Source: a virus. From it: a stretch of DNA of 23,367 nucleotides. The stretch covers positions 1-23,367 of the IMG/VR virus record IMGVR_UViG_3300025138_000374. One strand, written 5' to 3'. Numbering within the stretch: the stretch's first letter is position 1; every line of letters begins with the position of its first letter. Below are positions 5,299-15,362 of this stretch, in pieces. The position numbers were made by a program, and so were the translations under genes. The notes under the pieces are model-generated. The model was not told the origin of the DNA. It ran no database searches and saw only the letters and a program-made list of their open reading frames with translations.

Positions 5299-5991
5299 AT
5301 GAATAATAGAATTTTTGATCCAACAATCACTTCTGATTGGAGTGTTGCAAAGAATGATATAACTCTTAAAAATGAATTTTACAAATTGAAAAAATTTAGT
5401 AAAAGACATGGAGGCAATGTATCAATAATAAACTATAAGAAGGAAGCTCTTTTAAAAGCATTTAGATTTGTTAGAGAATTTAATAATGCTATTGATGTTG
5501 GAGCTCATTATGGTTTAATCACATTTCACTTAGACTCATATTTTGCTAATGTAGATTGTTATGAGATAGACAGCAATATGAGAAATTATTTAAGAAATAA
5601 TATAAAAAACTTTCATATGGAAAATGTTACTGTTCATTCGTGTGGATTAGGAGAAATAAAGAAAGAAGTTAATCTAGTATTTGATAAAGTAGATTCACTT
5701 ATTACAAAAGTAGATCCTAGACCACATATTGGAGGAAAACATCTTATTAAAACTATTGATTCTTTTAACTTTGATAAATGTGATTTTATTAAACTTGATG
5801 TTGAAGGATATGAACCTTTTGTTCTTCAAGGAGCTGAAACAACTATAAAAAATTTCAAACCTGTTATTCTCATTGAAGATAAAAACTTAGAATCAAAATA
5901 TAATATGGTAAATTCAATTGATTTGTTAAGAACCTGGGGTTACAAGCTAGTAGATCAAGTTAAAAAAGATTCTATTCTTGCATGTTCTTAG
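5299..5991 (+). CDS. FkbM-family SAM-dependent methyltransferase
   Basis: A 230-aa protein with a Rossmann methyltransferase core. SAM motif I is IDVGAHYG (residues 65-72), preceded by FNNA. The acidic end of strand 2 is YEIDS (88-92). The FkbM hallmark FIKLDVEGYEP lies at 163-173, followed by VLQGAE and VILIEDK. Such enzymes methylate hydroxyl groups of sugars or other small molecules, and phages often carry them for glycan modification. The ATG follows an AT-rich 48-base gap with AAGG about 15 bases upstream. Together with the kdsB-like gene it hints at surface-sugar remodelling. The substrate cannot be read from sequence. Confidence 0.85.
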   Translation: MNNRIFDPTITSDWSVAKNDITLKNEFYKLKKFSKRHGGNVSIINYKKEALLKAFRFVREFNNAIDVGAHYGLITFHLDSYFANVDCYEIDSNMRNYLRNNIKNFHMENVTVHSCGLGEIKKEVNLVFDKVDSLITKVDPRPHIGGKHLIKTIDSFNFDKCDFIKLDVEGYEPFVLQGAETTIKNFKPVILIEDKNLESKYNMVNSIDLLRTWGYKLVDQVKKDSILACS

Positions 5992-6593
5992 ATGATACTG
6001 AAATGTTTTATAATGTCCATAACAATGATTTGTGGATTTATGATAAATTAATTCTCTCAAAAAAATTAGGTTATGTTTGTGGTCCTCATGGAGTAGATGT
6101 TCCTAGATATGGCAAATATATTGTAAGACCTTGTGTTAATTTTATGGGTATGGGAAGAGGAGCTTACTTTACAAGATTTTGGAAAAGTACAGAAGATAAA
6201 ATGCCTGAAGGAACTTTTTGGTGTGAAGTGTTTAAAGGAAGACATTTATCTGTTGATTATATAAATCAAAAACAATATTTGTGCGTTGAAGGAATCAAAA
6301 GCAAAAGAGAAACAAACCTATGGAGATGGTTAAAGTGGGTTAAAACAAAAGATAAAATTCCTTTTCCTAATATACTCAAACATCTTACAAAAAAATATAA
6401 ATATATCAATTGTGAATTCATAGATGGTAAACTTATTGAAATTCATTTAAGATTAAATGTCGATTGGCAATTACTGCCTCATGCACAAGAAATAGTACCT
6501 TTATTCAAAGGTGACATACTTGTTCCTCCTTCTGAAGATTACGAATTCATTAAATCAAAAGATTTTAAAAGATTAGGATTTTATTGGAAATAA
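5982..6593 (+). CDS. conserved-looking protein of unknown function
   Basis: A 203-aa protein overlapping the end of the methyltransferase gene by 10 bases. A second in-frame ATG at 6003 (MFYNVH) is an alternative start; neither has a clear ribosome binding site. Features seen are a Gly/Met-rich loop (CVNFMGMGRGAYFTRFW, about 49-65), WCEVFKGRHLSVDY, and a C-terminal LIEIHLRLNVDW. The order basic-Gly loop, Glu strand, then E-x-H-x-R-x-N recalls ATP-grasp enzymes, but the match is too thin to assign. I recall similar proteins in T4-like marine phages annotated as hypothetical. It may act with the upstream methyltransferase. Confidence 0.65.
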   Translation: MFLDDTEMFYNVHNNDLWIYDKLILSKKLGYVCGPHGVDVPRYGKYIVRPCVNFMGMGRGAYFTRFWKSTEDKMPEGTFWCEVFKGRHLSVDYINQKQYLCVEGIKSKRETNLWRWLKWVKTKDKIPFPNILKHLTKKYKYINCEFIDGKLIEIHLRLNVDWQLLPHAQEIVPLFKGDILVPPSEDYEFIKSKDFKRLGFYWK

Positions 6594-8190: not shown

Positions 8191-8733
8191 ATGTCAATTG
8201 CGGTCTTTACATTTGGGAGACTAAACCCTCCTACCATAGGACACGAGAAGTTAATTAATAAAATTAGAAAGGTTGCTCGATTATCAAAAGGGCAACCTTT
8301 ACTTTTTTTATCTCACTCCCAAGACGATAAAAAAAATCCATTAGATTATTATTCAAAATTTAAATATTCCAAACTTTCTTTTGGAAATATTGTACAAAGA
8401 TCCAAATCTAACACTATAATAAAAGTAATGCAAGAGTTAGAAAAGAAATACAAAAAAGTTATTTTAGTAGCTGGATCTGATAGAGTTAAAGAATTTGATA
8501 CTCTACTACAAAAATATAACGGTAAAGAATACAACTTCGACAGCATTAAAGTTATGAGTGCAGGACAAAGAGATCCTGATGCTGATGGTGTAGAAGGAAT
8601 GAGTGCAAGTAAAATGAGAGAGTTAGCAAAAGATGAAGAGCTCCCTGAATTTACTAAAGGCTTACCATTAAAAGCACAAAGGCAAGCCAAAAATATTATG
8701 AATAGCGTAAGAAAAGGAATGAACTATGATTAA
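8191..8733 (+). CDS. nucleotidyltransferase of the NMNAT/cytidylyltransferase fold
   Basis: A 180-aa protein with the class-defining N-terminal motif FGRLNPPTIGHEKLI, in which TIGH (15-18) is the (H/T)xGH nucleotide-binding motif. The C-terminal signature MSASKMR (137-143) corresponds to the ISSTxxR motif. The middle carries VAGSDRVKEF. These enzymes transfer NMP to small phosphorylated substrates (NMN, pantetheine phosphate, glycerol or ribitol phosphate). Similar proteins are widespread in T4-like marine phages, and the exact substrate is not known to me. The gene begins 6 bases after the preceding stop without a clear ribosome binding site, which suggests coupling. Confidence 0.8.
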   Translation: MSIAVFTFGRLNPPTIGHEKLINKIRKVARLSKGQPLLFLSHSQDDKKNPLDYYSKFKYSKLSFGNIVQRSKSNTIIKVMQELEKKYKKVILVAGSDRVKEFDTLLQKYNGKEYNFDSIKVMSAGQRDPDADGVEGMSASKMRELAKDEELPEFTKGLPLKAQRQAKNIMNSVRKGMNYD

Positions 8734-9337
8734 ACTAAAAGATATGCAAGTTTTTGAAATCTTAACAAAGATGGAAGAAACTGTAGGAAGAACTAATAAG
8801 ATAGAATACCTAAAACAATTTAATGAACATATACCTCTTAAATATATTTTAAAGTTTAATTATTGTAAAACAATTAAATCAATCATACCAGAAGGTAATC
8901 CTCCTTTTAATGATCAATCAGAAGATGGTCCTAGTAAAGCATCATTGTGGCAATATCTTAGTATATTTCCTACTTTTGTTGAATCGAATCAATCTATGCA
9001 AACAAAACCTCTACAAAGAGAGAGAATTTTTATTGAAATGTTAGAAGCTGTTGCTGTTGAAGAAGCTAGAATGATTATTCTAGCAAAGGATAAAGACTTA
9101 GAAAAATTATATCCTAGTTTATCTGTTGAAATAGCAAGAGAAGCTTTTCCTGATATGGATATTCAAAATGATCTTCCTACTAAAACTTTGACAGAAAAAG
9201 AAATACAGAAAGATCTAACATCTGTAATAAAGCATAAAAAAGACGAGATTAAAAAACTTCAAGCAGAAGTTTCAAAATTAACAAAAGATATAAAGATTGT
9301 AAAAAATGAACCTAAATCAGATAATATTTCCATATAA
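8726..9337 (+). CDS. DUF6433-like phage protein
   Basis: A 203-aa protein overlapping the nucleotidyltransferase by 8 bases. The arrangement (short helical N-terminus, a Pro-rich loop PEGNPPFNDQ, a segment ending FxRERIFIEMLEAV, then EARMIILAKDKDLEKLYPSL and AREAFPDM) matches my recollection of a family conserved in T4-like cyanophages and pelagiphages and called DUF6433. The C-terminal 45 residues form a lysine-rich coiled coil (KHKKDEIKKLQAEVSKLTKD) that looks like an extension. Function is unknown. The family name is from memory and needs a profile search. Confidence 0.7.
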   Translation: MIKLKDMQVFEILTKMEETVGRTNKIEYLKQFNEHIPLKYILKFNYCKTIKSIIPEGNPPFNDQSEDGPSKASLWQYLSIFPTFVESNQSMQTKPLQRERIFIEMLEAVAVEEARMIILAKDKDLEKLYPSLSVEIAREAFPDMDIQNDLPTKTLTEKEIQKDLTSVIKHKKDEIKKLQAEVSKLTKDIKIVKNEPKSDNISI

Positions 9338-9812
9338 TATTCAAGAACTATCTCCGTGCATAAATGAAATTGGTTTTGATCTTCATTTTAATGGTGTGTA
9401 TAAACAACACGTTGATGATTTTAATAATAGTGTAGGTGATATTCCTTTCAATAAAGCTGGAGCATTTTTACACTCTACATACTTTGATAATATCAGAGAA
9501 TATAGACATGAAAATATTCCAACAGGAAGAGTGCTCCAAATAATTGAAAATAGATATGGCAATTATGATAAATTTATTATTACAGCAATTGATCAAGCTA
9601 CAAGGTTACAAGGTAATGGTTGGTTGTTTATGAATCATGCTGGTTATGTTAATATTATTCCAAATAATAGAATTGTAAATGATATTATTCTTATTATAGA
9701 TTTGTGGGAGCATGCTTATATTCCATCTCATGGTATAAATAAAACTGAGTATATAAAAACTCATATGAATATAATAAATTGGGATACAGTAAACAACAGG
9801 TTAATTAATTGA
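9306..9812 (+). CDS. Fe/Mn superoxide-dismutase-fold protein
   Basis: A 168-aa protein that aligns end to end with bacterial Fe/Mn SOD (about 193-205 aa). The N-terminal FPYNIQELSP matches LPYA...LAPH. The four metal ligands are visible at H27 (DLHFN), H56 (GAFLHSTYF), D132 and H136 (IDLWEHAY). IPTGRVLQII matches EPTGKVAEAI, GNGWLFM matches GSGWTWL, and INWDTV matches VNWEFV. Differences lie in the second shell: the gateway His30 and Tyr34 of E. coli SOD align with V31 and H35, and no active-site Gln is evident. It may be a real SOD, or a metal-binding protein that lost dismutase activity. The start overlaps the previous gene by 32 bases and the stop overlaps the next start. Confidence 0.85.
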   Translation: MNLNQIIFPYNIQELSPCINEIGFDLHFNGVYKQHVDDFNNSVGDIPFNKAGAFLHSTYFDNIREYRHENIPTGRVLQIIENRYGNYDKFIITAIDQATRLQGNGWLFMNHAGYVNIIPNNRIVNDIILIIDLWEHAYIPSHGINKTEYIKTHMNIINWDTVNNRLIN

Positions 9813-11056
9813 AATCATTCGAAGAATTATTTGAAGCAGCAGACAGCTCACAAAATTTACACATGACTCATGCTGATGAAGATCTGTTTGAGAGAGGTAA
9901 AGTTGGAGCTGAATTTGCTATTTCTACGTTAGAAGATGTTCTCAATACATTAGAGTCTAATAATACTTCTTCAGAAAATATTACAGTTAAATGGGATGGA
10001 GCTCCAGCTATTTTTTGTGGAACAGATCCTGAAGATGGAAAATTCTTTGTTGGTACAAAATCTGTATTCAATAAAAATCCTAAATTATATAAAACACAAC
10101 AAGAAATCACTACTGGAGAAGGTTCTGGAGGAAAAGCTGTTAAATTACAATATGCTTTAAAACATCTTTCATCAATAGGTATACCAAAAGATACTGTATT
10201 ACAAGGTGATATGATGTTTACTAAAGGCGATCAAAAGTATGAAACTATTGATGGTCAAAGATATATAACAGTTCACCCTAATACTTTGGTATATGCTTTT
10301 GCAGTTGATAGTCCTGTAGGAAAAGAAATAAGAAATGCAGACTTAGGAATAGTTTTTCATACTACTTATAAAGGTAGAACAAGTTTACAAAATTATAGAG
10401 CTTCATTTGGAGCTAATATAAACAAACTTAGAAAAGATAGAAGTGTTTGGATGGACGATGCTTTTTTTAAAAATGTATCAGGAACTGCAACCTTTACTTC
10501 ATCAGAGACTAATGAACTAAAAAAATATATAGCTAATGCAAAAAGAAATGTAAGTCCAAAATTTGATGACATTGTTAAGACAATGGCTATGATTCCTAAT
10601 GCAGCTGTAGGTTCACATATCAAATCTTATATCAATTCAAGAATAAGAGTTAATAAGTTTGATTTATCTCATAAAGAATATATAAAATATATGAAAACTT
10701 ATTGGGAAGATAAAGTTATTGCTAAAGTGAAAACTGATAAGAGTAAAGATTCAAAGAGAGCTGCATTAAAACAATTAGAAATAGAACTAGAAAAAATAAA
10801 ATCAGATGTAGATAAGTCATTTAATTTTGTTGAAGAAGTTAACAAAGCAAAAGTAATGATCATCAAAAAACTATCATCGTTGTTAAGTGGAAGAATATTT
10901 GCTCTTAAATCAAATGGTGATTTTGTTGCTACAGCTCCAGAAGGTTTCGTTGCAATAGGTAAAGACAATCAAGCAGTAAAACTTGTTGATAGATTAACTT
11001 TCTCAAGATTTAATTTCTCAGATGATTATGTCAAAGGTTGGCAAAGAGGAAATTAA
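9809..11056 (+). CDS. ligase-like nucleotidyltransferase (DUF6267-like) with capsid-targeting-like N-terminus
   Basis: A 415-aa protein read from a TTG start (TTGA overlap with the preceding stop). Motifs recall covalent nucleotidyltransferases (DNA/RNA ligases): KWDG at 61-64 with the candidate nucleotidyl Lys61 (motif I), VLQGDMMF near 130-137 (motif III), LVYAFAVD at 160-167, PEGFVAI at 377-383 (motif IV) and AVKLVD at 389-394 (motif V). An HMTHADED segment at 18-25 precedes them. I recall this architecture as the DUF6267 family of T4-like marine phages. The first ten residues (MKSFEELFEA, with L-F-E at 7-9) resemble the T4 capsid-targeting peptide MKTYQEFIAE and the gp21 cleavage consensus I/L-x-E. 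Ligase activity is unproven, and residues 305-350 are a lysine-rich helix unlike standard ligases. Confidence 0.75.
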   Translation: MKSFEELFEAADSSQNLHMTHADEDLFERGKVGAEFAISTLEDVLNTLESNNTSSENITVKWDGAPAIFCGTDPEDGKFFVGTKSVFNKNPKLYKTQQEITTGEGSGGKAVKLQYALKHLSSIGIPKDTVLQGDMMFTKGDQKYETIDGQRYITVHPNTLVYAFAVDSPVGKEIRNADLGIVFHTTYKGRTSLQNYRASFGANINKLRKDRSVWMDDAFFKNVSGTATFTSSETNELKKYIANAKRNVSPKFDDIVKTMAMIPNAAVGSHIKSYINSRIRVNKFDLSHKEYIKYMKTYWEDKVIAKVKTDKSKDSKRAALKQLEIELEKIKSDVDKSFNFVEEVNKAKVMIIKKLSSLLSGRIFALKSNGDFVATAPEGFVAIGKDNQAVKLVDRLTFSRFNFSDDYVKGWQRGN

Positions 11057-11522
11057 AAAGAAAATCTCCTATAACATATTCATGATTATAGATTTAGAAA
11101 TTATTGGTATTAAGAATAAAGAAGATGGCTTTCTTATTAGAGATACTATTGAACAAGCATTAATGACTCTTCTTCCTAGATGTAAGAGGTTAATAACTAT
11201 TACAGTCGAAATAGCTTTAGATGAAGATATGAAAGACACAAAAGCATTAATTCATTTAGAAGATGATAATGAATTTGTTATAGCTTTAAATGAAACTGTA
11301 CTCAAAGACAAGAATGATGTTATTCTTACATTATGTCACGAGTGTGTACATCTTAAACAACATATTTCTAAAGACTATTTTCAAATAGATGGAAATTTTA
11401 TTAAATTTAAGAATGAAATAGTTGATCTTAGTATTACAAATTATACAGATCTTCCATGGGAAAAAGAAGCATATGAATTAGAAGAAGGATTAGCTAATGC
11501 TCAAAAAAATTACTCAAGCTAA
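11022..11522 (+). CDS. small HExxH zinc-metallopeptidase-like protein
   Basis: A 166-aa protein with H106-E107-C-V-H110 in the segment LTLCHECVHLKQH, the zinc-binding helix of metallopeptidases. A downstream PWEKEAYELEEG (145-156) probably supplies the third ligand (Glu). This minimal layout recalls the small SprT/M78-like peptidase-fold proteins found in phages. No signal peptide is seen. The start is uncertain: the first ATG (11022) lies 35 bases inside the upstream gene, while ATGs at 11028 and 11082 would give 164 and 146 aa; none has a good ribosome binding site. The substrate is unknown. Confidence 0.75.
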   Translation: MIMSKVGKEEIKKKISYNIFMIIDLEIIGIKNKEDGFLIRDTIEQALMTLLPRCKRLITITVEIALDEDMKDTKALIHLEDDNEFVIALNETVLKDKNDVILTLCHECVHLKQHISKDYFQIDGNFIKFKNEIVDLSITNYTDLPWEKEAYELEEGLANAQKNYSS

Positions 11523-12384: not shown

Positions 12385-12560
12385 TGGAAAATTTTAAACA
12401 CATTTTAAAAATAGACTATAATAATAGGGTCGATGAATCTGCCGAAATCATTGACACGTGGATGAAAGCTAATATTGAAAACGCTTATGTTCAAAATTTA
12501 GGAAATATTTGGCTTAAAAAATTAATAAGGAGTGAACGTGAACGTATTCTGTTTAGATAA
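12384..12560 (+). CDS. 58-aa protein of unknown function
   Basis: The start overlaps the preceding stop (TAATG) and has an AGAGG ribosome binding site. The product begins MENFKHILKIDYNN and contains ESAEIIDTWMKANIENAYVQ, a charged, mostly helical small protein ending RILFR. It fills the gap before the next gene and overlaps it by 23 bases. It contains an ACTATAATAATA element that could be a promoter for the following gene, so the stretch may be dual-use. Family not recognised. Confidence 0.55.
   Translation: MENFKHILKIDYNNRVDESAEIIDTWMKANIENAYVQNLGNIWLKKLIRSERERILFR
12415..12425 (+). promoter_or_regulatory. possible promoter core ACTATAATAAT inside the 58-aa gene
   Basis: TATAAT at 12417-12422 sits in the context AGACTATAATAATAGG, matching the element seen before the rnh-like and dpdA-like genes. 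It is about 115 bases upstream of the start at 12538. No convincing -35 is visible (only TTTTAA near the right distance). The call rests on recurrence of the motif. Confidence 0.35.
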
Positions 12561-13086
12561 AAATCCTGCTACATCAGCTGAAATGATGTGTGATAAACAT
12601 GTAGTTAAAATGATTCTTGAATCATGTCAAATACTTTCAGCAGTTATTGATGAAAATTATATGGATAAGTATAGTGGTAACAATGATGTTAAACCTAGTA
12701 AAACTTTAGGATGTCCAGGATATCCTCCTGCTCATGTTAAACATCCATCAACAATGTGGGCGATTGAATCAAGAGGAAACGCTAAGTGGTTAATACGACA
12801 CCTTAGAGCTCTTAATATGGAATATTCTAAACGATATAAGAAGCAACACAAGTTAGCTGGTTGTACAATGATATACGAAGCTCAATTGCAATATCTCAAA
12901 TTTTCTAAACAAAAAAAAACTAAATTTACTCAAGCCATTACAAATAAAAAATGGCATGATAAAGATCCTATCCAAGCATATAGAAACTATTATAATATGG
13001 AAAAATTTATGTTTGCAAAATGGAAACTTGGTAACATTCCTTATTGGTACACAGGAGCTCCGGTGTATAATATTCAAATAGATTAA
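12538..13086 (+). CDS. widespread phage protein of unknown function
   Basis: A 182-aa protein read from the GTG at 12538. An AGGAG at 12528-12532 gives ideal spacing to this GTG, whereas an upstream in-frame GTG at 12532 overlaps the ribosome binding site. Conserved-looking blocks are CDKHVVKMILESCQIL near 18-33, HPSTMWAIESRGNAKWL near 76-92 and DKDPIQAYRNYYNMEK near 141-156. I recall this pattern as a common phage protein with no assigned activity. The abundance of His, Arg, Glu and Trp in conserved blocks suggests an enzyme, perhaps nucleic-acid directed, but this is a guess. Confidence 0.75.
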   Translation: MNVFCLDKNPATSAEMMCDKHVVKMILESCQILSAVIDENYMDKYSGNNDVKPSKTLGCPGYPPAHVKHPSTMWAIESRGNAKWLIRHLRALNMEYSKRYKKQHKLAGCTMIYEAQLQYLKFSKQKKTKFTQAITNKKWHDKDPIQAYRNYYNMEKFMFAKWKLGNIPYWYTGAPVYNIQID

Positions 13087-13131: not shown

Positions 13132-13302
13132 ATGTTCAATATTCAAGATAAAGATACTAGTAGAGGTCATTTCTACGTCAGTATAATTAAAAGCGTACTT
13201 AGATTATGTGCAGCTATTTTTCTAATAATGGGAAATTTTATTGCGGCAGGAGTATTTTTCTTTGTTGCAGAGTTATTAGGTATATTAGAGGAAATAGTAT
13301 GA
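13132..13302 (+). CDS. 56-aa single-span membrane protein upstream of queE
   Basis: An AGAGAGGAG ribosome binding site precedes the ATG at 13132. The product has a polar N-terminus (MFNIQDKDTSRGHFYVS), a hydrophobic segment at about residues 18-49 (a run reads LCAAIFLIMGNFIAAGVFFF) and ends EEIV. The stop overlaps the QueE start (ATGA at 13299-13302), so the two are translationally coupled. It is the first gene of the probable que transcription unit. No family recognised. Confidence 0.65.
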   Translation: MFNIQDKDTSRGHFYVSIIKSVLRLCAAIFLIMGNFIAAGVFFFVAELLGILEEIV

Positions 13303-14198
13303 GTGAAAAAGAATACTTATATTCAGAAGTATTTGATAGCATTCAAGGCGAAGGTACATATACAGGAGTGCATACTCTTTGGTTAAGATTCTTTCTGTGT
13401 AATTTACAATGTAATGGTTTTGGCCAGATGTTTCCAACTAAACCTGAGACATATGAATTACCTTTTGAAGATTTTGATGCTACTACTGTTAATAGAGTAG
13501 AAGATCTTCCTGTATGGGACAAAGGTTGTGATAGTTCTTATACGTGGAGTAAAAAGTTTAAACATCTAATGGGTAAAAAGACACCTAAAGAATTGTGTGA
13601 AGTAGTTAAGAAATGTGCTTCTAACGAAACTAATCCTGAAGGTACATTTTTACATCCTATAAGTAAAATGAAATCACATATGTGTTTTACAGGTGGTGAA
13701 CCTCTAATGCCTCATGCTCAGATGGCTAGTGTACAGATGCTGAGACATTTTTATGAAGATCATAATACACCTGGTTCTGTAACTTATGAAACTAATGGTA
13801 CACAAAAGTTGAGAGATGATTTTATTGAGTTCTGGAAACATGAAGCTCAGAATGAATTGTTTATGTCTCTTAGTCCTAAGTTATGGTCTGTTGCAGGTGA
13901 GAAGAGAGAGAAAGCTATAAAACCTGAACTAGTAAGTGTTTATAGAGAATTAACTGATCGAGGTCATTTGAAATTTGTATGTGGTTCGGATAATGAACAT
14001 TGGGATGAAATGGAAGAAGTGTTAGAATTGTTTAGAGCAGAAGGTGTAGATTATCCTGTATACATTATGCCTGTTGGAGCTAGAGAAGAAGAACAAACAG
14101 ATACAGCTGGAAAAGTAGCTGAAATAGCTTTCAAAAGAGGATATCATGTAAGTGCAAGAGTACATGTATATCTATTTGGTAACGCAATAGGAACATAG
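13299..14198 (+). CDS. queE: QueE, 7-carboxy-7-deazaguanine synthase (radical SAM)
   Basis: A 299-aa protein that makes 7-carboxy-7-deazaguanine (CDG) from 6-carboxytetrahydropterin. The start at 13299 is chosen over one 93 bases upstream because of the GAGG ribosome binding site, the ATGA overlap and the canonical beginning EVFDSIQGEGTYTG. The radical-SAM cysteines are C34, C38 and C77. The last lies in GCDSSYTW, matching the CDTxxTW of QueE, so 38 residues are inserted between C38 and C77. FTGGEPLM (130-137) is the SAM-binding GGEP motif. YETNGTQ, LSPKLW and LKFVCGS follow, as in QueE. Known bacterial QueE can have a modified cluster loop. It is longer than typical QueE (about 210-250 aa), partly from this insertion. 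Confidence 0.92.
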   Translation: MSEKEYLYSEVFDSIQGEGTYTGVHTLWLRFFLCNLQCNGFGQMFPTKPETYELPFEDFDATTVNRVEDLPVWDKGCDSSYTWSKKFKHLMGKKTPKELCEVVKKCASNETNPEGTFLHPISKMKSHMCFTGGEPLMPHAQMASVQMLRHFYEDHNTPGSVTYETNGTQKLRDDFIEFWKHEAQNELFMSLSPKLWSVAGEKREKAIKPELVSVYRELTDRGHLKFVCGSDNEHWDEMEEVLELFRAEGVDYPVYIMPVGAREEEQTDTAGKVAEIAFKRGYHVSARVHVYLFGNAIGT

Positions 14199-14206
14199 GA
14201 GAGAAA

Positions 14207-14668
14207 ATGATTTACTATAGTACAAAAACGTATGGACATAATATAGGTCTAAGTGCAGTGTTTCGTCAGCCTAATGCTGATCATTCACATTGTCATTTAT
14301 TACATGGTTATAGTCTACAATTTAAATTTACATTTGCATGTTATAAATTAGATAATAAGAATTGGGCTGTAGACTTTGGTGGTCTTAAACCTTTGAAAGC
14401 TTGGCTTGAAGATCAATTTGATCATAAGTTGTGCTTAGATCAAGATGATCCATTTATGAGAAAGTTTATTGAACTAGAAGATTTAGATTTAGTTAAAATA
14501 AGAACTTTTGCTGGAGTTGGAGCAGAGAAGTTTGCTGAACATGCTTTCCAGTTTGCTGATACTATGATAAGAGATAAAACTTTAAGTAGATGTTGGGTAC
14601 ATGCTGTTGAATGTGCAGAACATGGAGCTAACAGTGCAATTGTGAAAAAGGAATATATTAATGAATAA
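14207..14668 (+). CDS. queD: QueD-type 6-carboxytetrahydropterin synthase (divergent)
   Basis: A 153-aa T-fold protein, 8 bases after queE with a GGAGAG ribosome binding site. It would turn dihydroneopterin triphosphate into 6-carboxytetrahydropterin. Matches to QueD are C29 in HSHCHLLHGY (catalytic Cys, C-x3-H), AVDFGGLKPL (VxDFxxLK), FDHKLCL (LDHxxL) and VECAEHGANS at the C-terminus. Two of the three usual zinc histidines appear changed: the first (AxHR) reads AVFR and the third (HGH) reads HGY. I recall this SHC...HGY subgroup in bacteria and phages, so other histidines (H11, H26, H28, H30) may bind the metal. It overlaps folE by 8 bases. Confidence 0.85.
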   Translation: MIYYSTKTYGHNIGLSAVFRQPNADHSHCHLLHGYSLQFKFTFACYKLDNKNWAVDFGGLKPLKAWLEDQFDHKLCLDQDDPFMRKFIELEDLDLVKIRTFAGVGAEKFAEHAFQFADTMIRDKTLSRCWVHAVECAEHGANSAIVKKEYINE

Positions 14669-15362
14669 AAATGGTATCTCTGATGTTATTAAACAGAAAC
14701 TTGAAAAAGATGGTAAGCGATATTGGGCTGGTGATAATATATCAGAGTACGTTAATGAAGAAGATAAACAAGCCCTTATAGAAGAGTTAAAAGAAAAGTT
14801 TGAAGGTGTATTAGATAGTTTGTTAATAGATCGTCACAACGATCCTAACTCAATGGATACACCTCGTCGTCTTGCAAAGATGTATATTAATGAAATTATG
14901 GGTGGACGATATGAGAAAGCACCTAAAGTTACAGCTTTTCCTAATACAGATCCTGATACTCGATATGGAGGTATTATTGTTACAAGAGCAGAATTAATAT
15001 CAATGTGCTCTCATCATCACCAACCTGTTAAAGGTGTAGCTTATATTGGACTACTTGCAGGTGTTCAGGTAATTGGTTTATCTAAATATACTCGTATTGC
15101 TCAGTGGTGTGCTAATCGTGGAACATTACAAGAAGAACTTACTATGAGTATAGCTAATGAATTACAAAAGTATACAGGTACAAAAGACATAGCTGTTTAT
15201 GTACAAGCTACACATGGTTGTATGGAACACAGAGGTGTTCTTGCTCATAGCTCACTTACACAAACTACTGAGCTTCGTGGACAATTCTTTAATCCATCAG
15301 TAAAGAATGAGTTCTTAGACTATATAAAAATGCAACAAACATTTGCAGGTACAAGAACATAA
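14661..15362 (+). CDS. folE: GTP cyclohydrolase I
   Basis: A 233-aa protein that opens GTP to dihydroneopterin triphosphate, the first step of folate and 7-deazaguanine synthesis. Zinc ligands are C116 and H119 (CSHHHQPV) and C187 (HGCMEHRGV). GLSKYTRIAQWCANRGTLQEEL (read in parts GLSKYTR, RLQ-like TLQEEL) and NSMDTPRRLAKMYINE are the standard FolE signature blocks. The length fits the family (about 190-250 aa). It overlaps queD and is closed by a strong terminator, so it is the last gene of the que unit. It uses more CGT/CGA codons than neighbours, perhaps reflecting high expression or recent acquisition. Confidence 0.95.
   Translation: MNKNGISDVIKQKLEKDGKRYWAGDNISEYVNEEDKQALIEELKEKFEGVLDSLLIDRHNDPNSMDTPRRLAKMYINEIMGGRYEKAPKVTAFPNTDPDTRYGGIIVTRAELISMCSHHHQPVKGVAYIGLLAGVQVIGLSKYTRIAQWCANRGTLQEELTMSIANELQKYTGTKDIAVYVQATHGCMEHRGVLAHSSLTQTTELRGQFFNPSVKNEFLDYIKMQQTFAGTRT

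Follow-up and report, generated by a model that had tools for sequence, protein, structure and literature searches.

The window analysed here, a stretch of 23,367 nucleotides covering positions 1 to 23,367 of the IMG/VR virus record IMGVR_UViG_3300025138_000374, raises the question of what an Fe/Mn superoxide dismutase (SOD) homologue does in a marine T4-like phage when several of its gateway residues have been replaced. The gateway of Mn/Fe SODs has been studied for decades with point mutants, mostly of the human enzyme, and nearly all of them are slower. The original prediction, made from the sequence of this locus, was that the gene codes for either a variant dismutase or a repurposed metal protein. 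This turned out to be the right pair of hypotheses, and the evidence leans towards a variant dismutase.

The gene and its surroundings

The SOD open reading frame has 168 codons and overlaps the genes on both sides, by 32 bases upstream and 4 bases downstream, as in an operon.

9306..9812, + strand: compact Fe/Mn superoxide dismutase homologue, 168 aa, ATG to TGA (PF02777, AlphaFold2, VIA-align)
8726..9337, + strand: upstream DUF6433 gene (PF20025, Pfam), overlapping the SOD gene and found directly before it in 45 loci
9809..11056, + strand: downstream DUF6267 gene (PF19782, Pfam), which starts with TTG and shares 4 bases with the end of the SOD gene

The DUF6267 gene is the first or second gene after SOD in 40 loci, and about 41-45 loci of the T4-like subclade share the order nucleotidyltransferase, DUF6433, SOD, DUF6267. 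Among cultured phages, the region is closest to Pelagibacter phage HTVC008M and cyanophages, and the DUF6267 protein is closest to Methylophilales phage Melnitz. Both HTVC008M and Melnitz carry the DUF6267 gene, but no SOD is annotated beside it and neither gave a SOD match, which indicates that SOD is an accessory gene occupying a conserved site. The protein would be made from the replication-gene region during infection.

Homology and fold

Pfam analysis matched the protein to the entire Sod_Fe_C profile (PF02777; E=5.3e-17, 62.2 bits against a cut-off of 20.9), while Sod_Fe_N matched residues 8-43 below its cut-off (E=2.5e-4, 21.9 bits against 27). The top phmmer match in the PDB was 1b06, a Sulfolobus Fe-SOD (2e-16). 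An AlphaFold2 model built from an alignment of 17 phage sequences had a mean pLDDT of 94.6 and a pTM of 0.89, and Foldseek retrieved 256 PDB chains with it at E<=0.001, the best 50 of which were all Fe/Mn SODs. The protein has the SOD fold, a helical hairpin followed by an alpha/beta domain, in the model and by VIA-align. Structure prediction had been proposed as a check on the SOD assignment, and the model does superpose on solved Fe/Mn SODs (VIA-align with Listeria SodA 9twc: Z 24.2, rmsd 1.6 A, 167 of 168 residues). The predicted alignment with Fe/Mn SOD does run the whole length, but it has to bridge a stretch of ~20 residues that is missing between the first and second ligands.

9327..9425, + strand: N-terminal arm and first helix, residues 8-40 (Sod_Fe_N match; model helix 21-40)
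9441..9488, + strand: second helix, residues 46-61 (model helix), with the hairpin ~20 residues shorter ahead of it
9519..9800, + strand: C-terminal alpha/beta domain, residues 72-165, Sod_Fe_C (Pfam)

More specific family models did not recognise the protein. The NCBIfam SOD equivalogs NF007832, NF008177 and NF041312 gave 33-45 bits and did not reach their cut-offs of 300-363, and PHROGs had no family for it at E<=0.01; one of the 17 relatives weakly matches an unnamed PHROGs family.

Metal site and second-sphere residues

Residues were mapped to E. coli SodB and SodA. Ligands 26/73/156/160 of the E. coli enzymes correspond to H27, H56, D132 and H136, so that mapping and profile alignment both bear out the four ligands first proposed, which are predicted from the alignment to converge on one Fe or Mn. 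The same mapping agreed with the proposed replacement of His30 by Val31 and of Tyr34 by His35, and added that of His31 by Tyr32; the motif at the HXXXHH place is HFNGVY. The Gln69 site of Fe-SODs is G52 and the Trp77 site is F60, whereas Trp158 and Glu159 are retained as W134 and E135. In canonical SODs, Tyr163 bonds His30 across the dimer. Here Tyr163 is I139, and neither the His30-Tyr34 gateway nor the His30-Tyr163 cross-dimer bond has its residues, V31, H35 and I139 standing in their place.

9327..9425, + strand: first helix with ligand H27, V31 (His30 site), Y32 (His31 site) and H35 (Tyr34 site), by mapping
9441..9488, + strand: second helix with ligand H56, G52 (Gln69 site) and F60 (Trp77 site), by profile alignment
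9663..9668, + strand: Asn121, the water-coordinating Gln/His site, by hhalign of the family against canonical SODs
9693..9722, + strand: I130 (two before the Asp ligand), ligand D132, W134, E135 (dimer Glu bridge), ligand H136 and I139

The water-coordinating site required a different approach, because the MAFFT column against long SODs was shifted; it was set by profile-profile alignment, in which the invariant N120 aligns with a conserved Asn and Asn121 falls at the place of Gln146. The original prediction had found no obvious active-site Gln, and there is indeed no Gln, but the position is not empty: it holds Asn121 here and His in the close relative L017.

A compact clade of phage proteins

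Scans of IMG/VR yielded first 36 loci and then 80 that were kept, each of the 80 carrying the short form, whole or in part, from a second scan with at least 592 confirmed SOD-related stretches. With the window protein included, the compact set comprises 84 loci and 63 distinct proteins. In this clade 28-29 residues lie between ligands 1 and 2, whereas long SODs have 43-60 there. All three His ligands occur in 84/84 and the Asp ligand in 82/84, and W134, E135 and W106 are each found in 84/84. The His30 site is Leu, Ile or Val in 84/84, the G52 site (Gln69 of Fe-SODs) is Gly in 84/84, and the Tyr163 site is Tyr in none of the 84. The window protein shares the 28-29 spacing, the aliphatic 30 site and a residue other than Tyr at the 163 site. 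Two before the Asp ligand it has Ile, where the clade has Leu, Ile or Val. Purifying selection on the clade is strong, with omega of 0.03-0.19 between close relatives.

Two positions vary across the clade, the Tyr34 site (Tyr, His or Leu) and the water-coordinating site (His, Asn or Tyr). Among the 63 distinct proteins, the pairs at sites 35 and 121 are Tyr/His (34), His/Asn (16), Leu/Tyr (7), Tyr/Asn (5) and His/His (1); His thus stands at site 121 in 35 of the 63 and at the 30 site in none. The deep members of the clade keep Tyr34 and the C-terminal His. The pairs look coupled, but only suggestively so: on a tree built without these two columns the sites changed 6 and 3 times (7 for the pair), which is too few to test for covariation. 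The combinations look like a retuned relay rather than decay, since they fall mostly into three pairings, and in each of them at least one of the two sites carries a polar or aromatic group.

In two relatives, L064 and L065 (SOD gene at 5992), Asn has replaced the Asp ligand (INCWEHAY); they belong to the subclade whose 34 and 146 sites are Leu and Tyr. In the Leu35/Tyr121 subclade, about 20 loci, a large protein without a Pfam match is encoded directly after SOD (L060, 972-2354). In L023 and L026 (5182-6690) a SOD domain lies within a phage protein of 502 aa that extends far beyond it on either side, and BFVD also holds a 501-aa 'superoxide dismutase', A0A6J5L953.

Phylogeny, spread and other genomic contexts

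The compact clade forms one side of a branch with an SH-aLRT of 99 (97/84 in the careful tree) and is monophyletic and apparently phage-only. Its sister group consists of divergent long cellular SOD homologues (support for the union 100/96), on long branches that make this placement provisional. L116, L124, L130, L134, L138 and L163 are cellular long homologues of this kind, from Parcubacteria, TM6, Chlamydiota and Thorarchaeota MAGs. Like the compact proteins they have no His30 or His31, carry Phe at the Trp77 site and are without Tyr163 where the site aligns; they differ in their longer hairpin, cellular origin and long branches. A scan of 84,980 species genomes with two short peptide patterns gave no compact form in the 80 loci kept, only long SODs or fragments, and would miss rare compact cellular forms without these patterns. 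The best cellular matches with long alignments were about 20-35% identical, and in the plasmid collection the only SOD matches, among the matches listed, were of long-form length and 24-27% identity.

It had been proposed that such a gene is unusual in a T4-like phage. This is correct for cultured phages, since among 50,697 records the short form was confirmed only in the PA5oct group and Vibrio phage 2.275.O, but not for uncultured ones, where it is common, as the SOD-related stretches in IMG/VR attest; its place is fixed in about 41-45 T4-like contigs.

A second, sister subclade has a quite different neighbourhood. SOD directly follows the gene for translation initiation factor IF-1 in 12 loci, and an Fe-S A-type carrier gene (PF01521) lies within two genes after SOD in 11 loci (IF-1 before and PF01521 after SOD, in L021, L022, L067, L080, L087, L090 and others). 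Fe-S clusters are attacked by superoxide and are its classic target; a neighbouring Fe-S carrier therefore fits superoxide defence.

Comparison with known SODs

The compact proteins resemble Fe/Mn SODs (SodA, SodB; PF00081 and PF02777) in fold, four ligands, the W134/E135 of WEHAY and the Trp of GxGW. In contrast, the phage hairpin is about 20 residues shorter, His30, His31, Tyr163 and Trp77 are replaced, and the water-coordinating Gln/His is Asn in the window protein and Tyr in one subclade. At the water site, the subfamilies SodFM1-5 all have either Gln or His; the paper that defines them contains neither 'bacteriophage' nor 'viral' in its text (PMC10172142). SodFM1 and SodFM5 are set apart by a C-terminal Gln, where the window protein has Asn121 at the Gln146 place, and SodFM2 by an N-terminal Gln, where it has Gly52 at the Gln69 place. 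SodFM3 carries HXXXHH and SodFM4 the motif minus its last His, both with a C-terminal His, sometimes Gln (PMC10172142); Asn121 differs from the His/Gln at 146, and HFNGVY from the motif. Most SodFM3/4 proteins do have Tyr34 and a C-terminal His, a likeness to the deep members of the phage clade (PMC10172142). By its residues the compact clade fits none of SodFM1-5, because many members have Asn or Tyr at the water site and all lack His30 and Tyr163.

Phage SODs have already been annotated and discussed. The 'SodB' of PA5oct-group Pseudomonas phages and the 'manganese/iron superoxide dismutase' of Vibrio phage 2.275.O belong to the same compact clade with the same gateway losses; they are about 30% identical to the window protein and differ from it in their 34 site (Tyr), their water site (His) and their neighbours, which are ClpS/IbpB or ribosomal-protein genes instead of DUF6433/DUF6267. 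A0A6J5L7W0, named 'superoxide dismutase' from an uncultured Caudovirales phage in BFVD (182 aa, 35% identity, TM-score 0.95 to the model), means that a compact-sized phage form was already on record; no active-site analysis of it was found. Among the papers searched, none gave biochemistry of a phage-encoded Fe/Mn SOD, and we found no description of a compact SOD subfamily with a rebuilt second sphere.

Function

The best reading of the window protein is an active but kinetically altered dismutase, encoded by an auxiliary gene directed against superoxide. We consider it fairly probable that it is a metal-dependent phage SOD of a compact, phage-restricted subfamily that shields both the cell during infection and the replication of the phage against superoxide, and the unusual form, which many other phages share, probably clears superoxide from infected cells along an altered route. 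What favours a dismutase is that the metal shell is retained together with E135, W134 and W106, that deep members retain Tyr34 and the C-terminal His, and that an Fe-S carrier gene is a neighbour. The whole-chain fold match, the low omega and the pairings at sites 35 and 121 also speak for it. Judging from homology and the model, H27, H56, D132 and H136 would hold the metal, and the bridge Glu135-His136 across the dimer has probably persisted, since E135 is invariant, while the residue pair of the second bridge, His30-Tyr163, has been lost. Protons may be delivered through another second-sphere set, Asn121 (His or Tyr in relatives) and His35 (Tyr or Leu in relatives), with a turnover expected to be lower than in SodA/SodB. 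Use of Fe, or cambialistic use of metals, is expected from the aliphatic residue that stands two positions ahead of the Asp; in characterised SODs, Val at this position accompanies a preference for Fe, and the SodM of S. aureus, which has Leu, is cambialistic (PMC10172142, PMC13008324).

Data from the human enzyme show what such replacements may cost. Single mutants of human MnSOD have k1 of ~0.005 (H30V) and 0.07 (Y34H) nM-1 s-1 compared with 1.5 nM-1 s-1 in the wild type, so that even H30V retains near 0.005 nM-1 s-1, that is 5e6 M-1 s-1 (PMC9208312), whereas Q143N has a kcat of 0.3 vs 40 ms-1 and traps Mn in the reduced state (PMC12576686). The window protein combines three such damaging changes with the loss of Tyr163, and this, together with the relatives L064 and L065 that have Asn for the Asp ligand, speaks against a dismutase. 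The slow human mutants thus leave either a slower, rebuilt dismutase or a redox protein with another task. For the latter, the altered second sphere would lock the oxidation state or admit another substrate, such as peroxide, quinol or an oxidised cofactor, and the protein would be no dismutase in the cell. The clade-wide loss of His30, His31 and Tyr163, the change of Gln/His to Asn or Tyr in many members and the frozen, reduced Mn of human Q143N (PMC12576686) are in line with such a repurposed metalloprotein, but the ligands, E135, W134 and W106 show roughly the conservation seen in cellular SODs, and neither the SodFM3/4-like deep members (PMC10172142) nor the Fe-S carrier of the sister subclade would be expected from it. 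We regard this explanation as unlikely, though it is the strongest rival.

The other explanations are less probable still. Some mitochondrial ribosomal proteins use the SOD fold non-catalytically, and a structural or adaptor role, for example in binding replication-region neighbours, could account for the short surface hairpin and the fixed place between DUF6433 and DUF6267 in about 41-45 loci. Such a role would have no need of four ligands and second-shell Trp/Glu, with the three His invariant in 84/84, and the other subclades have quite different gene neighbourhoods, which makes it distinctly improbable. An ordinary host-derived SOD decaying after capture would explain why residues that hardly vary among cellular SODs have been lost, but it is barely credible, as it is refuted by selection (omega 0.03-0.19, with frames intact in 84 loci) and by the tree, in which the clade is deep and monophyletic with no close cellular donor (best about 20-35% identical).

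The role against an oxidative burst in infection that was proposed at the outset is plausible. A T4-like Campylobacter phage had an EOP of 0.30 on a sodB host mutant (PMC6024767), which implies that host SOD capacity can limit infection, and phage-carried SOD as a defence against ROS has been proposed in general for freshwater phages (PMC6802176) and also in PMC12542629. We further put forward, tentatively and as a possibility that we would not yet call probable, that the compact clade is a sixth SOD subfamily in which the proton relay was rebuilt around an unchanged metal site, with dismutation proceeding without the His30-Tyr163 bridge and the 34/146 partners changing together (Tyr/His, His/Asn, Leu/Tyr), one form having Tyr at the opposite position.

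The clade is a large natural family in which several gateway residues have been removed or swapped together and kept under purifying selection, and if the sixth subfamily holds true, its members are natural multi-site mutants of a textbook enzyme. If active, they would show what the real need for the gateway is and offer ready-made variants for tests of proton-coupled electron transfer; if inactive as dismutases, they would mean that phages have put the SOD fold to a new use. Aquatic phages commonly carry the gene, which is relevant to the way phages deal with superoxide during infection of a cell.

Other genes in the window

The replication-gene region also contains genes for a CTP_transf_3 cytidylyltransferase (KdsB-like, 2174-2893) and an FkbM-type methyltransferase (5299-5991). 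A SprT-like metalloprotease-type protein, barely over the Pfam cut-off, is encoded at 11022-11522, and a UV-repair gene with a pyrimidine-dimer DNA glycosylase domain (PF03013) lies at 12532-13086. At 13206-15362, neighbouring genes code for a QueE-like radical-SAM protein (a weak Pfam match), a QueD-like 6-pyruvoyl-tetrahydropterin synthase and GTP cyclohydrolase I; together they probably make up a cluster for a 7-deazaguanine or queuosine precursor.
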